From assembly GCF_900111495.1 (NCBI RefSeq), contig NZ_FOIU01000001.1:186001-250000 (forward strand): a stretch of 64,000 nt of DNA. Direction: 5' to 3'. Under the pieces are notes generated by a model. It saw only the letters and a program-made list of their open reading frames with translations, had not been told where the DNA came from and ran no database searches. Both the position numbers and the translations under genes were made by a program. Shown in pieces: positions 39,449 to 45,703 of the stretch; positions within the stretch are counted from its first letter, which is position 1, and every line of letters begins with the position of its first letter. This stretch comes from Chryseobacterium wanjuense (GTDB taxonomy: Bacteria; Bacteroidota; Bacteroidia; Flavobacteriales; Weeksellaceae).

Positions 39449-40921
39449 CTAAAATTCCTTCCTAATCCTCTCAATCGCATTTTTCATACTCAAATTAAAA
39501 TACTCTTTTTCCAGACGAATCGGCGGCGCTTGCCTCACTTCGCAATCCGAAATACTGCACGATTCGCAGGTTACACCGACGTTTATTGTTTTCAAATTGG
39601 AGGATTTTATAAAATTAATTTTTTTAATCGTTTGAGAATTCAACAAAATTCCAAGGCAATAACTTCTGTTACTGCCGTCAGAAAACGGATTTTTCTGTGA
39701 AGTTGAAATTACGAGATAACTGATTCCCTGGTCTTTATAATGTGAAATTTGCGCATCTGTCAAGGTTTCATTTTCTTTTAAATGATGCAGATTTTTCACA
39801 GCAATCCATCGTCTGCAATAATGTTCGTTGGTCGCGTTCGCATGAGGAGCTTGTTGATGATTAAGGTGTAACTCTTTTAAAATCTGTATTTTATCAGAAT
39901 TTTTCTTTTTGACCAAGCATAAATAAAACAAATCCTTTATTCCCAATTCAGAAGATAAGATATTGGTCAGACGATAGTAAAATGTTTCAGGCGAATGGGT
40001 GAAATATTTAATTAAATTCTCAAAATTCAAAGGATCCCAGTCATGTTGAAGGAAAAATTCTGAAGTTTTTTCAAGCGTTTTTTGTTTTGAGATTAATAAA
40101 GCTCCGGCGAAATAAGAAGCATAGAAATTATTTAGAATTTCCTCAAAACTTCCGAAATCCAGCCATGAATAGGTGTTGGGGCGACTTTTCAGTTCCAGAA
40201 CATTGAAGCCAATTTCTTTAGCAAAAATGAAAGTTTTTTGATCTTGTTCTAATTTTTTATTTAAAAGAAGCAATTTTTTCTCTGGAATAAACAATGAACG
40301 AAGATTGTCAAGCGTTCCATATTGTTGAAAATCTTCAGATTGGATCTTATAATTAAATTTTCCAGTTAATATATTTTCTAAAACATCAGGTTGTAGGTTT
40401 TTACTGATTTCCACTTGATTTTCACGGGCAAATTGCACAACTTTTTCCTCAATTTCAGGAAAATAATTATCATACAATTCCTGAAATGATCTCAAAACCG
40501 CAAAATAAAATCGCTCTTTTCCCAGATTATAATTCTGTGAAATTTCAATCAACGCATTGATAAAAGCCGTTACTTTTTTGGGGGCATCACTGATGATGCT
40601 GATGAGATTGTTTTTATTAATCCCAAAAAGGTCGAGGGGAATTTCCTTAAAAAAATCAGATTGTAAAATTTCATTGAAGGGAGCCAGGCTTTTATCCAGT
40701 TTTGTAGATACCAGATCATCAAAAGTACAGCTCAGAGCTTCTGAAAGCTGGATGATTTTATCATGCTTCGGATATTTTTTACCGTTTTCTATTTCATTTA
40801 AATAAGATTTAGACAATCCTGTTTTCACGGCAAGATCCTGCAAAGACCAGTTTTTCTTCTGTCTCTGCTGTTTTAGTTTTAATCCAAAAACCGTTTTGAT
40901 AAAGTCACTTTCAGAATTCAT
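39449..40921 (-). CDS. XRE-family regulator of RamB/ScfR type (HTH + IrrE-like + DUF2083-like)
   Basis: A 490-residue regulator. Residues about 10-70 form a helix-turn-helix (LKLKQQRQKKNWSLQDLAVK, LSKSYLNEIENGKKYPKHDK). A long middle section resembles the ImmA/IrrE-like region, but its HExxH zinc motif is missing (FIFAKEIGFNVLEL). The C-terminal 150 residues contain NEHYCRRWIAV, SYCLGILL and CESCSISDCEVRQAPP. This is the architecture of the actinobacterial RamB/PrpR-type regulators of acetate and propionate metabolism, which sense acyl-CoA. It is divergent from aceB-aceA with a 126-bp gap that carries two matching palindromes, so it very probably controls the glyoxylate shunt. Confidence 0.85.
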   Translation of the reverse strand: MNSESDFIKTVFGLKLKQQRQKKNWSLQDLAVKTGLSKSYLNEIENGKKYPKHDKIIQLSEALSCTFDDLVSTKLDKSLAPFNEILQSDFFKEIPLDLFGINKNNLISIISDAPKKVTAFINALIEISQNYNLGKERFYFAVLRSFQELYDNYFPEIEEKVVQFARENQVEISKNLQPDVLENILTGKFNYKIQSEDFQQYGTLDNLRSLFIPEKKLLLLNKKLEQDQKTFIFAKEIGFNVLELKSRPNTYSWLDFGSFEEILNNFYASYFAGALLISKQKTLEKTSEFFLQHDWDPLNFENLIKYFTHSPETFYYRLTNILSSELGIKDLFYLCLVKKKNSDKIQILKELHLNHQQAPHANATNEHYCRRWIAVKNLHHLKENETLTDAQISHYKDQGISYLVISTSQKNPFSDGSNRSYCLGILLNSQTIKKINFIKSSNLKTINVGVTCESCSISDCEVRQAPPIRLEKEYFNLSMKNAIERIRKEF

Positions 40922-40943
40922 AACTCAAATATAATAATTGAAA

Positions 40944-40955
40944 GCGATTTTTCGC
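40944..40955. promoter_or_regulatory. Candidate operator 1, GCGA-N4-TCGC
   Basis: GCGATTTTTCGC, an inverted repeat GCGA..TCGC with a 4-bp centre, 23 bp from the regulator start codon. It has the same geometry as operator 2. Confidence 0.6.
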
Positions 40956-40979
40956 ATAATAATTTTTAAAATAAATTTA

Positions 40980-40991
40980 GCGAACGTTCGC
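40980..40991. promoter_or_regulatory. Candidate operator 2, GCGA-N4-TCGC
   Basis: GCGAACGTTCGC, a perfect 12-bp palindrome, 36 bp from operator 1 (start to start). It lies about where the -33 region of the aceB promoter should be, given the -7 box at 41012-41019. Confidence 0.65.
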
Positions 40992-41011
40992 TGTATGTGA
41001 AAATTTTTATT

Positions 41012-41019
41012 TATGTTTG
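41012..41019 (+). promoter_or_regulatory. -7 promoter element of aceB
   Basis: TATGTTTG, 28 nt before the ATG at 41048. The upstream alternative start at 40997 lies before this box and is therefore unlikely. Confidence 0.5.
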
Positions 41020-41047
41020 TGATGTCGAATCTCAAAATCAATACATT

Positions 41048-42622
41048 ATGGAAACTAAAACTCAATTAAAAATAAAGGCTCAACAACAGTTTGAGGAGAT
41101 TTTTTCTAATGATTTAGTAGATTTTCTTATTGAACTTCATCAGAATTTTAACAAGAAAAGAATAAAACTTCTCGAAGAAAGAAAAAAAACTCAGCAGGAA
41201 TTTGATAAAGGAATTCTTCCGAAATTCTTATCTGAAACTGAAGAAATCAGAAACGGAAATTGGGTTTGTTCACCACTTCCTGATGATCTTCTGGACAGAC
41301 GTGTGGAAATTACCGGACCGGTCGATCGGAAAATGATTATTAATGCATTGAATTCCGGTGCTTCAACATTCATGGCAGATTTTGAAGACAGTAATTCCCC
41401 AACCTGGAAAAATTGTATGGAAGGACAAATTAATCTTTCTGATGCGATTAACCAACAAATTGATTTTACAAATGAGCAGGGAAAATCTTATGAACTTAAT
41501 GAAAAAACTGCGGTTTTACTGGTTCGTCCGAGAGGTTTACATTTAAACGAAAAACATCTGGAAATTAATGGAGAAGAAACTTCAGCTTCATTAATTGATT
41601 TTGGAATTTATTTTTTCAGAAATGCAAAACAATTGTTGGAAAACGGTAGCGGACCTTATTTTTACCTTCCAAAACTGGAACATTATAAAGAAGCCAGATG
41701 GTGGAATGAAGTTTTTATTTTTTCGCAAAACTATCTGGGAATTCCTCAGGGAACGATCAAAGCAACCGTTTTGATTGAAACTATTGCTGCTTCTTTCCAA
41801 ATTGACGAAATTTTATTTGAATTAAAAGAACACAGCTCCGGCTTGAATTGTGGGCGCTGGGATTATATTTTTTCATTTATTAAAAAATTTAGAAATCTTC
41901 CCGAATTTATTGTTCCCGACAGAGACCAGGTGACAATGACTTCCCCTTTTATGAGTGCTTATTCTAAAAGGGTGATTGAAATTTGTCATAAAAGAAATGT
42001 CCACGCAATCGGTGGAATGGCTGCGCAAATTCCTATTAAGAATGATTATGAAGCAAACAGCATTGCCTTTGGAAAAGTGAGAAGTGACAAAGAACGTGAA
42101 GTGAAAAACGGACACGACGGAACCTGGGTGGCACATCCGGCGTTGGTTTCTGTAGCGAAAGATATTTTCGACCAATTCATGCCTTCACGCAACCAAATTG
42201 ATAAAAAATTTAATTATCAGATTACAGAAAAAGATCTGCTTGAAATCCCAAAAGGGGAGATCACCGAAAATGGAGTACGAAAAAACATCAATGTCGGAAT
42301 TCTTTACATTGAATCTTGGCTGATGGGAATTGGTGCGGCAGCAATTTATAACTTAATGGAAGATGCGGCAACAGCGGAAATTTCAAGAACCCAAATCTGG
42401 CAGTGGCTGAAAAATGAAGCAGTGTTGAGCGACGACCGGACATTAACCAGAAAAATGGTTCTCCAGTGGGAAGCTGAAGAAATGGAGCGTATTGAAAAAT
42501 ATGTCGGTGAGGAACGTTTCAAAAACGGGAAATTCAATCTTGCCAAAGAACTTTTCAATGAACTGATTTTCTGTGAAAACTTTGAAGAATTTCTGACACT
42601 GAAAGCATATCCTTTTATATAG
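41048..42622 (+). CDS. aceB: Malate synthase A
   Basis: A 524-residue glyoxylate-shunt enzyme that condenses glyoxylate with acetyl-CoA to malate. The family marks are PVDRKMIINALNSGASTFMADFEDSNSPTW, LLVRPRGLHLNEKH, the metal-binding ATVLIETIAASFQIDEILFEL, GRWDYIFSFIKKF, and the Asp-bearing C-terminal LMEDAATAEISRTQIWQW. The length is near the 530 residues usual for the A form. The ATG at 41048 is preferred over one 17 codons earlier, because the extra residues match nothing and precede the -7 box. It is followed by aceA after 177 bp. Confidence 0.96.
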   Translation: METKTQLKIKAQQQFEEIFSNDLVDFLIELHQNFNKKRIKLLEERKKTQQEFDKGILPKFLSETEEIRNGNWVCSPLPDDLLDRRVEITGPVDRKMIINALNSGASTFMADFEDSNSPTWKNCMEGQINLSDAINQQIDFTNEQGKSYELNEKTAVLLVRPRGLHLNEKHLEINGEETSASLIDFGIYFFRNAKQLLENGSGPYFYLPKLEHYKEARWWNEVFIFSQNYLGIPQGTIKATVLIETIAASFQIDEILFELKEHSSGLNCGRWDYIFSFIKKFRNLPEFIVPDRDQVTMTSPFMSAYSKRVIEICHKRNVHAIGGMAAQIPIKNDYEANSIAFGKVRSDKEREVKNGHDGTWVAHPALVSVAKDIFDQFMPSRNQIDKKFNYQITEKDLLEIPKGEITENGVRKNINVGILYIESWLMGIGAAAIYNLMEDAATAEISRTQIWQWLKNEAVLSDDRTLTRKMVLQWEAEEMERIEKYVGEERFKNGKFNLAKELFNELIFCENFEEFLTLKAYPFI

Positions 42623-42799: not shown

Positions 42800-44080
42800 A
42801 TGAAAACAAAACAAGAACAAATCCGGGAAATAGAAAAAGACTGGCTGGAAAATCCACGCTGGGCTGGAATTAAAAGACCTTACACGGCGGAAGAGGTATT
42901 GAAGCTGCGTGGTTCTTATAAATTAGATTATACGATTGCAGCAGAAATGGCGAAGAAGTTCTGGAACAAATTACATCATCAGGACTTTGTTGCCGGATTG
43001 GGCGCTCTGACGGGAAATCAGGCAGTACAGGAAGTTGATGCAGGTCTGGAAGCTATTTATCTTTCAGGATGGCAGGTTGCTGCAGATGCCAATCTATCGG
43101 GTGAAATGTATCCCGACCAATCATTGTATCCCGCGAATTCGGTGCCTTCGGTGGTGAAAAAAATTAATAATGCTTTATTAAGAGCAGATCAAATACAATC
43201 TGTGAATGGAGGAGGGGAAAAAGAATATCTGGTTCCGATCATTGCTGATGCGGAAGCTGGTTTTGGAGGAAATTTGAATGCATATGAACTGATGAAACAA
43301 ATGATTGAAGCGGGAGCTGCGGCCGTGCATTTTGAAGATCAGCTGTCTTCTGCGAAAAAATGTGGTCATTTGGGTGGAAAAGTTTTGGTTCCGACTCAGG
43401 AAGCGATCAATAAATTGATTTCTGCCCGTCTTGCGGCGGATGTTTTAGGAGTTCCGACTTTAATTATTGCAAGAACAGATGCAGATGCGGCGGATTTACT
43501 GACTTCAGATATTGATGACAGAGATAAAAAATTTATAACCGGAGAAAGAACTTCCGAAGGTTTTTATGTCGTGAAAAATGGAGTAGAACAGGGAATCGAC
43601 AGAGGTTTGTCTTATGCTCCCTATGCCGATTTGATCTGGATGGAAACTTCAAATCCTGATCTGGAACAGGCAAGAAAATTTGCAGAAGGCATCCACTCAA
43701 AATATCCTGAGAAAATGCTGGCTTATAATTGTTCGCCATCATTCAACTGGGCTGCCAAATTGAGCGTCGATGAAATGTTGAATTTCAGGGAAGAATTGGC
43801 AAAAATGGGCTATAAATTCCAGTTTATTACTCTGGCTGGCTTCCATGCGTTGAATACGGCGATGTTTGAATTGGCTTTGGCTTACAAAGAAAAAGGAATG
43901 GCGGGATATTCGGAATTGCAGGAACGTGAATTTGCCCTTCAAAAGCAAGGCTTCAGGGCAGTGAAGCATCAGTCTTTTGTAGGGACAGGATATTTTGATG
44001 AGATTCAGAATATTGTGACCAACGGTTCTTCGGCGACGGTGGCAATGAAAGATTCTACGGAGACGGCGCAGTTTCATTAA
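42800..44080 (+). CDS. aceA: Isocitrate lyase
   Basis: A 426-residue glyoxylate-shunt enzyme that splits isocitrate into succinate and glyoxylate. Hallmarks are [57 protein letters not shown] with the catalytic KKCGH Cys, [13 protein letters not shown], and [15 protein letters not shown]. Length fits the short bacterial form. It is downstream of aceB; whether the repeat-bearing gap between them is transcribed through is not shown. The pair lets the cell grow on acetate or fatty acids. Confidence 0.97.
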
Positions 44081-44245: not shown

Positions 44246-45703
44246 ATGAGCGGTTTTAAACTAAGAGATATTTACTTAGGTGTAAATGATGGAAAAAAAG
44301 AAGCATTATACAAAAATGATTTCGAGAATTATTTTGTTGAATATAATAACAATTACAATGATATTTTAAAGCCTGAAAAATATCTAATTATTGGTAGAAA
44401 AGGTTCCGGAAAAACAATTTTAGCAGAATATGTTAAGAAACAGGCTGTGAAAAAAAATTCATGGTATTGTAAAATTAAATCTTATAAAGATTTTAGATTT
44501 CAAGAGTTGATAAATTTTAAAACTAATGATGTATCCCCAAATGAATATTCGGCAATTTGGAGATGGATAATTCTGTTGGATATTGCAAAGCTTATATTTG
44601 AAGATCATACTTTAAATGATAAACAAGGAATAAAAAAACTTCAAGACTTTTTTAAAGAAAACTATAATTCTTTAGATATCGATGATAAGAAGATTTTAGA
44701 AATTAATAAAAATAATAAAATAAATGGTTCTATACTGACGGAAATTATTAATATAAGTGGTGAAAAAGGTTCTGAAATAAAATTTGGCGATGGAAATTAT
44801 CTAAACTATATTGAAGATCTTGAACGAGTAATATTAAAAATTTTAAAAAGTAGTAAGAGCAAATACACTTTATTTTATGATGAATTAGATGATAGATTTC
44901 AGAATGATGAATTTTATAGAAATTCTCTTATTAGCCTTATTAAAGCTGTTGATTCTTTAAATTGTGGTTTTTTAGAAGAAAAGATTGATTTTAAAGTTGT
45001 GCTTCTAATTAGATCTGATATTTTTGCAGTTTTAAATGATACGGACTTAAATAAATTGAAAGTAATCAATACCTTAAACATTACATGGGGAGAAAAGGTC
45101 AGCAGTGACTCTCCTTTATTACATTTGGTGGTTAAGAAGGCTAAGAAGTCTAACCTATATTTAAATTCTTTATCTGATATAAGAGTACTTAAAACTTTAT
45201 TTCCTCAAGATGTAAAAAAGATTGCACCCGAAAGATTTATTTTAGAAAGAACCTTTTTTAGACCAAGAGATATTATAACACTTTTAAATTTAATAATACA
45301 TAAATACCCAGAATCAAGATATTTTGGATGGAAAGGTTTACATGAAATTAAATCTTCATATTCAGAATATCTATTTGATGAAGTAAGGAATGAGATGATT
45401 GGACATATCTCTCAAGAAGAAATTGATCAAGGGTTAAAATTGTTAAAAAATTATAATCAACATTTCTTTGAATATTCTGATTTAAGAACTTATTACGAAG
45501 CGAATAAGACTCTTTATAGTAAAATAGACTTAGATAAAATTCTGATTGAGTTTTTTAAGTTCAATGTAATAGGTAATAAATGGTTTAATAGGTTTAAACA
45601 GAAAGAGTATTATACATGGGCACATAGAGACTCTCGTGCCGAGATCGATTTAAATAAAGAAATAGTTATTCATTTAGGATTAAGAGAACATTTATCAATG
45701 TAA
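44246..45703 (+). CDS. Orphan P-loop ATPase (Sll1717-like)
   Basis: A 485-residue protein with Walker A in YLIIGRKGSGKTILAEYV and a Walker B-like TLFYDELDDRFQND. A C-terminal RTFFRPRDIITLLNLII looks like the Arg-bearing sensor segment of AAA/STAND-type ATPases. It resembles the Sll1717 family of P-loop ATPases, several of which sit in defence or mobile regions. Here it stands alone between aceA and a thioesterase. The DNA is visibly more AT-rich than its neighbours, with Asn/Lys/Ile-rich codons, which suggests acquisition. No partner nuclease, toxin or integrase is adjacent. Its function is unknown. Confidence 0.7.
   Translation: MSGFKLRDIYLGVNDGKKEALYKNDFENYFVEYNNNYNDILKPEKYLIIGRKGSGKTILAEYVKKQAVKKNSWYCKIKSYKDFRFQELINFKTNDVSPNEYSAIWRWIILLDIAKLIFEDHTLNDKQGIKKLQDFFKENYNSLDIDDKKILEINKNNKINGSILTEIINISGEKGSEIKFGDGNYLNYIEDLERVILKILKSSKSKYTLFYDELDDRFQNDEFYRNSLISLIKAVDSLNCGFLEEKIDFKVVLLIRSDIFAVLNDTDLNKLKVINTLNITWGEKVSSDSPLLHLVVKKAKKSNLYLNSLSDIRVLKTLFPQDVKKIAPERFILERTFFRPRDIITLLNLIIHKYPESRYFGWKGLHEIKSSYSEYLFDEVRNEMIGHISQEEIDQGLKLLKNYNQHFFEYSDLRTYYEANKTLYSKIDLDKILIEFFKFNVIGNKWFNRFKQKEYYTWAHRDSRAEIDLNKEIVIHLGLREHLSM

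Follow-up and report, generated by a model that had tools for sequence, protein, structure and literature searches.

A conserved inverted repeat as the likely operator of a RamB/PrpR-type regulator beside the glyoxylate shunt genes of Chryseobacterium wanjuense

Which protein, acting at which site, controls the glyoxylate shunt genes of Chryseobacterium wanjuense? In the 64,000-nucleotide stretch of DNA analysed here (contig NZ_FOIU01000001.1, positions 186,001 to 250,000; to be referred to as the window), the genes for malate synthase (aceB) and isocitrate lyase (aceA) are transcribed away from the gene of a predicted regulator, with a divergent gap of 126 bp (40922-41047) between the regulator gene and aceB. 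A first-pass annotation, made from the letters alone, had placed two GCGA-N4-TCGC palindromes in this gap, at 40944-40955 and 40980-40991, and had taken this pattern as the operator of the regulator. Both positions are correct. Palindrome 2, extended by one base on each side to AGCGAACGTTCGCT, is very likely the operator of the divergent neighbouring regulator, as judged from the sequence, its conservation, the promoter geometry and the co-occurrence of regulator and site. The features of the locus are the following.

39449 to 40921, minus strand: regulator gene, 490 amino acids, with HTH_3, Peptidase_M78-like and ScfRs domains (Pfam) and the cysteines C369 and C452-X2-C455-X4-C460
40926 to 40933, minus strand: predicted -7 box of the regulator promoter, TATATTTG (from the sequence and the box position in PMC9723704)
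40944 to 40955, no strand: palindrome 1, GCGATTTTTCGC, an accessory, lineage-limited site (from sequence and conservation)
40979 to 40992, no strand: predicted main operator, AGCGAACGTTCGCT, consisting of palindrome 2 (GCGAACGTTCGC, 40980-40991) and the flanking A and T (from conservation)
41012 to 41019, plus strand: predicted -7 box of the aceB promoter, TATGTTTG (match to TAnnTTTG)
41048 to 42622, plus strand: aceB, malate synthase A (Pfam and NCBIfam scores)
42800 to 44080, plus strand: aceA, isocitrate lyase (Pfam and NCBIfam scores)

Alignment of the intergenic regions of relatives, a check proposed with the first-pass annotation, distinguishes the two palindromes. Among 80 fetched regulator-aceB loci (the best 80 of 128), GCGAACGTTCGC is identical in every one, always with an A before and a T after it. 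The mean column identity is 1.00 for the 14-mer, compared to 0.81 and 0.83 for the 40 bp on either side (81 rows with the window counted). Of the 80 loci, 64 have palindrome 1 without a mismatch and 11 have it with one mismatch; in the other 5, with two or more mismatches, it is counted as lost. The palindromes are 35 bp apart, start to start, in 62 loci and 36 bp apart in 13, with 23-24 bp between them. A further 60 loci of the window's own family were chosen by hand from 118 genomes, partly from the same species as the 80 (for example L116 and L077). GCGAANNTTCGC is present in 58 of them and has one mismatch in the other two; many genera have no palindrome 1. Both palindromes are therefore real, but they are not equivalent, as only palindrome 2 is kept beyond close relatives.

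The 140 rows (80 and 60 loci) are not independent, and 37 are left below 75% identity. The filter for the 140 rows required a near match to the operator, and it dropped L142, in which the operator is 939 bp away from the regulator gene and closer to aceB. In the 37 non-redundant rows, preselected in this manner, A-GCGAA..TTCGC-T has a single half-site base change in one row. The central two bases of the operator are variable (CG, AA, CA, CT).

The association of site and regulator gene extends through the phylum. In a sample of 395 Bacteroidota genomes, 70 have a relative of the regulator at an E value of 1e-30 or better, giving 65 loci outside the window's own family (G432 excluded). GCGAANNTTCGC is located within 600 bp of the regulator gene in 52 of these loci, with the full 14-mer in 45, and 7 more have it with one mismatch. 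By our own arithmetic, assuming even composition, the chance of an exact match to the ten bases in 600 bp is about 1 in 1700. Regulators with the core GCGAA-NN-TTCGC next to their genes share as little as 31-50% identity with that of the window.

The looser pattern GCGA-N4-TCGC behaves differently. It has only two matches in the window (at least two in 3 of 100 dinucleotide shuffles). In the genome-wide search that had also been proposed, it has 10 matches compared to 5 for the reversed control, and is therefore unspecific, so that the weight has to rest on conservation. The conserved form is AGCGAANNTTCGCT instead, which is found exactly once in the genome. Outside the gap there are 8 genomic matches to the loose pattern, and the one that fits GCGAANNTTCGC (L177) is inside a reading frame.

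The presence of the site also parallels that of the regulator from genome to genome. Of the 197 genomes of the own family, 118 have a strong regulator match, and 108 of these contain the exact 12-mer; of the 79 without such a match, 4 contain it. The 118 include a genome in which the regulator relative is broken by stops (G180:C1:1757342-1758791), with aceB and the 12-mer still there. The regulator-less genomes with the 12-mer include G130, G095, G132 and G045; it is apparently inside coding sequence in G130 and G132 (lipB-like, named by eye) and in G095 (xerD-like, likewise). In the phylum sample, the 14-mer is present in 58 of 70 genomes with the regulator as compared to 68 of 325 without it (p 1.4e-22), and the reversed 14-mer in 16 of 70 and 58 of 325, respectively (p 0.32). 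Measured by the frequencies of this control, the 14-mer is near background in the regulator-less genomes. In the family f5 (41 genomes), 24 genomes have the regulator and 24 the 14-mer, with both present in 22 and both absent from 15 (p 2.5e-7). The regulator genomes of f5 hold 115 sites (at most 17 in one), the others hold 3, and the control gives 10 in total; most of the f5 sites are unlinked to the regulator gene. The palindrome as the operator of the regulator is thus supported by conservation and by co-occurrence, including that at unlinked loci, but only in the form of AGCGAANNTTCGCT and with palindrome 1 dispensable.

Several observations count against this assignment. Six of the 65 phylum loci lack a site within 600 bp of the regulator gene, even when one mismatch is allowed. 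A genome of the same genus that lacks the regulator (G091) holds one exact 14-mer. In f5, G585 and G604 have the regulator and no exact site, and G586 and G606 have sites and no regulator. In the genome of the window, the 14-mer is found with up to one mismatch in 3 places, compared to 6 for the control, and no further target is evident. The promoter motif TAnnTTTG (see below) is not found after the operator in 24 of the 140 rows, mostly from one clade. In the family f48, the sites adjoin helicase, TonB, glutamate synthase and leucine-rich genes, with no metabolic pattern, and several other sites fall within reading frames.

The regulator itself has the RamB/PrpR-type domain order HTH_3, Peptidase_M78 and ScfRs, as had been read at first pass, and each domain exceeds its Pfam cut-off (51.9 bits against 23 for PF01381, 27.2 against 22 for PF06114, and 25.7 against 24 for PF09856). 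It shares with ScfR/IsaR proteins the HTH and C-terminal ScfRs domains, and a C-X2-C-X4-C motif with an earlier, fourth cysteine. The four residues, C369, C452, C455 and C460, are unchanged in 17 relatives and present in 65 or 66 of 66 phylum rows. Residues 36-56, the recognition-helix stretch, have a conservation of 0.85, compared to 0.54 for the entire protein (66 rows). The closest named relatives are Chryseobacterium proteins, with up to 94% identity. A second ScfRs match was not found in the same genome, and sequence searches of the PDB returned HTH relatives only. In the equivalog test for class 1 RamB (NCBIfam NF038139), the regulator scores 41.3 bits, far from the cut-off of 700. The RamB-like circuit suggested earlier stands in its divergent pairing with aceB-aceA; by NCBIfam, the regulator is not an ortholog of RamB. 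In the best reading, the regulator belongs to a Bacteroidota branch of the ScfR/IsaR regulators, which use acyl-coenzyme A (acyl-CoA) and an iron-sulfur (Fe-S) cluster of the [4Fe4S] type. An Fe-S cluster and the sensing of CoA esters are predicted for the present protein as well.

The operator is located immediately upstream of the predicted aceB promoter. PMC9723704 places the TAnnTTTG motif of Flavobacterium psychrophilum at -12 to -5. With this placement, transcription of aceB would begin at 41024, and the 14-mer (40979-40992) would occupy -45 to -32. The -7 box is at 41012-41019, as given at first pass, and the operator overlaps the -33 position. TAnnTTTG is found 17-21 bp downstream of the 12-mer in 116 of the 140 rows, compared to 5% of shuffles (duplicate species included), and the distance from operator to box is 20-21 bp in most rows. 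On the opposite strand, the predicted regulator start falls on the A of its ATG (40921), and the mRNA is therefore predicted to be leaderless. A CAAANNTA box is located 3-5 bp from the regulator ATG in 86 of the 140 rows. Relative to the predicted regulator start, palindrome 1 covers -34 to -23, and autoregulation through it is plausible from this layout.

In the proposed mechanism, a dimer of the HTH domain of the regulator would read the inverted pair of GCGAA half-sites, which are separated by two bases and located shortly before the aceB promoter. In this way, aceB-aceA would be switched by the level of a CoA ester that is sensed through the C-terminal Fe-S/CoA domain. In the most likely mode, a higher-order form of the regulator would connect the two palindromes and hold both promoters down. 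The ligand-bound dimer on palindrome 2 would substitute for the absent -33 element and activate aceB, comparable to the proposal for Paracoccus RamB. One dimer would be enough in loci without palindrome 1. As to the direction of control, the aceB promoter has, by eye, no recognisable -33 element, which favors activation, while the overlap of the operator with the -33 place also permits repression. Provided that the regulator-operator pair is right, activation or dual control is somewhat favored.

Plain repression would have the regulator cover the aceB promoter (and its own promoter via palindrome 1) until it is released by a CoA ester, and it is a serious though less probable alternative. It is consistent with the overlap at -33 and with the position of palindrome 1 in the regulator promoter, and M. 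tuberculosis RamB represses icl1 (PMC6765138). Moreover, in the clade L157-L175, which has no TAnnTTTG after the operator, a TAnnTTTA-like box overlaps the start of the operator (by eye), and binding there would block transcription. On the other hand, a promoter with no recognisable -33 element is typical of activation, and icl expression on acetate requires RamB in Paracoccus (PMC10370305).

It is improbable that the palindrome serves a different transcription factor and is retained in the same genomes by chance. Such a factor would be compatible with the few genomes that hold the regulator or the site alone, and that the neighbouring regulator is the protein that binds is itself inferred. 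However, regulator and site co-occur throughout the phylum and at the unlinked f5 loci, and most regulator loci have the site next to the regulator gene, whether aceB is present or not. An RNA hairpin or terminator is highly improbable and was rejected: there is a single terminator-like match (minus strand, 40992-40979), but the palindrome is upstream of both predicted starts, the gap does not fold distinctly better than its shuffles (z score of -1.24, with 21 of 200 shuffles equal or better), there is no Rfam match at the gathering score, and a protein site accords with the co-occurrence with the regulator and with the distance to the -7 box that most rows show.

The closest proven system to this predicted regulator-operator pair is RamB (class 2, Pden_1365) of Paracoccus denitrificans Pd1222, compared here by its description in PMC10370305. 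In both cases, a regulator of the ScfR family is divergent from malate synthase followed by isocitrate lyase, two sites are located in the divergent gap, and the glyoxylate cycle is the object of control (as a prediction in the present case). The two Paracoccus boxes are nearly identical, 18 bp apart and 82 bp upstream of ms, and both are required. In comparison, palindrome 2 is universal in the 80 fetched loci and palindrome 1 is dispensable. The printed Paracoccus primers do not contain GCGAANNTTCGC. The Paracoccus host has the ethylmalonyl-CoA pathway, the intermediates of which are the ligands of RamB, and the RamB tetramer is thought to repress and the dimer to activate (PMC10370305).

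According to PMC6765138, M. tuberculosis PrpR/RamB has HTH, CoA-binding and Fe-S regions, a C-X2-C-X4-C motif with an earlier cysteine, and acetate and propionate genes under its control, comparable to what is seen or predicted for the regulator described here. The four cysteines of the regulator correspond to the four residues that hold the Fe-S cluster in PrpR, and the distance from C369 to the C-X2-C-X4-C motif is 83 residues, compared to 84 in PrpR. The sites differ, with TTTGC(A/G)AA for PrpR/RamB and GCGAA-NN-TTCGC here, and reading of the gap (40922-41047) revealed no TTTGC(A/G)AA. These sites share the letters GC(A/G)AA, suggestive of a common half-site in a different arrangement.

A third relative, the ScfR of Mesorhizobium loti NZP2037 (L378), is located beside propionyl-CoA carboxylase genes and has 23% identity over 94% of the query. 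Like the present regulator, it is divergent from acyl-CoA genes and its cysteine spacing is identical; its gap carries TTTGCAAATTCGCAA and not GCGAANNTTCGC. With the M. loti protein as a guide, the adenine-stacking His319 of PrpR appears to correspond to Tyr316 of the regulator. A counterpart of PrpR Phe240 was sought by the same route and not placed, as the spacing is 38 rather than 79.

In other families of Bacteroidota, different genes are found next to the site. Thirty f5 site loci from four genomes were read one by one, and 17 of them adjoin genes of beta-oxidation type (5 of 8 in G372, 2 of 2 in G232, 5 of 11 in G597 and 5 of 9 in G600; raw counts). The types are acyl-CoA dehydrogenase, FadB-like, enoyl-CoA hydratase, electron-transfer flavoprotein and dienoyl-CoA-reductase-like, the last being our own reading of Oxidored_FMN together with Pyr_redox_2. 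Many of the f5 neighbours were named through BLAST against annotated neighbours and not by Pfam; for the ten loci of G597 and G600, seven names come from BLAST at 57-81% identity, one (L367) from BLAST at 26%, and two from Pfam. Among the neighbours at the remaining 13 loci are an Fe-S protein shared by three genomes, a fatty acid hydroxylase and an acyltransferase, in addition to several unnamed genes. Paired sites 63-65 bp apart are present in L330 and, upstream of a long acyl-CoA dehydrogenase gene in three f5 genomes, in L289, L361 and L370. This spacing suggests cooperative or looped binding.

Elsewhere, the site is next to genes for phosphoenolpyruvate (PEP) carboxykinase (L308, a Pfam assignment, and L309, judged only from agreement in gene size), aconitase (L296, L306), acyl-CoA dehydrogenase and an IcmF-like mutase (L304, L305), phenylalanine hydroxylase (L302) and dihydroxy-acid dehydratase (L310, L315). 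Seven loci have a fatty acid-CoA ligase gene together with a FadB-like gene divergent from the regulator gene (L223 annotated, the other six linked by BLAST); PEP carboxykinase and fructose-bisphosphatase genes are in this position in L217, and an aconitase gene in L220. In the f30 loci L240, L245, L247, L248 and L250, an adenylate kinase-like gene is divergent from the regulator gene and is followed by an M16 peptidase gene; L250 has no site.

In other Bacteroidota families, genes of beta-oxidation, aconitase and PEP carboxykinase are thus probable targets of the regulator-operator pair. In the best reading, the regulator would control the glyoxylate shunt here and probably fat oxidation elsewhere, the wider fat-oxidation regulon being a proposal from sequence association. 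We give about an even chance to a still broader proposal, in which a phylum-wide acyl-CoA/Fe-S regulator with the operator AGCGAANNTTCGCT would combine the roles of a fatty acid regulator and a glyoxylate shunt regulator. It would be local in families like that of the window, a global switch of beta-oxidation in f5, and tied to aconitase and gluconeogenesis elsewhere. If the f5 reading is right, the arrangement resembles that of the FadR type in Proteobacteria, with one acyl-CoA-responsive regulator over scattered beta-oxidation genes. The FadR-type fatty acid regulators of Proteobacteria belong to unrelated protein families and are not known to have the ScfR-type Fe-S region. The open-licence literature that was searched contains no description of a regulator of acetate or fat use in Bacteroidota, or of an operator for it. 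The present finding supplies a candidate regulator, its operator and testable targets together. It also offers a natural experiment, as the pair is local in some families and has apparently spread to many genes in another.

A few individual loci are of separate interest. In Sphingobacterium chungjuense (L080) and S. corticibacter (L083), the regulators are 83% identical to that of the window, as near as those of Epilithonimonas; palindrome 2 is retained and palindrome 1 is absent. This module may have been transferred horizontally from the window's own family. In L173, L157 and L168 (genomes G021, G099 and G028), regulator and operator are retained and only remnants of 34-40 residues are left of aceB; apparently, the glyoxylate shunt is being lost here while its switch is still in place. 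In Persicobacter psychrovividus (Cytophagales), the regulator gene is followed by a divergent hypothetical gene, aceB and aceA, and the gap holds GTGAAAATTCGCT, one letter off by eye. Finally, downstream of aceA in the window, 44246-45703 encodes a protein of 485 residues that has no Pfam match and contains, by eye, the nucleotide-binding motif GRKGSGKT.

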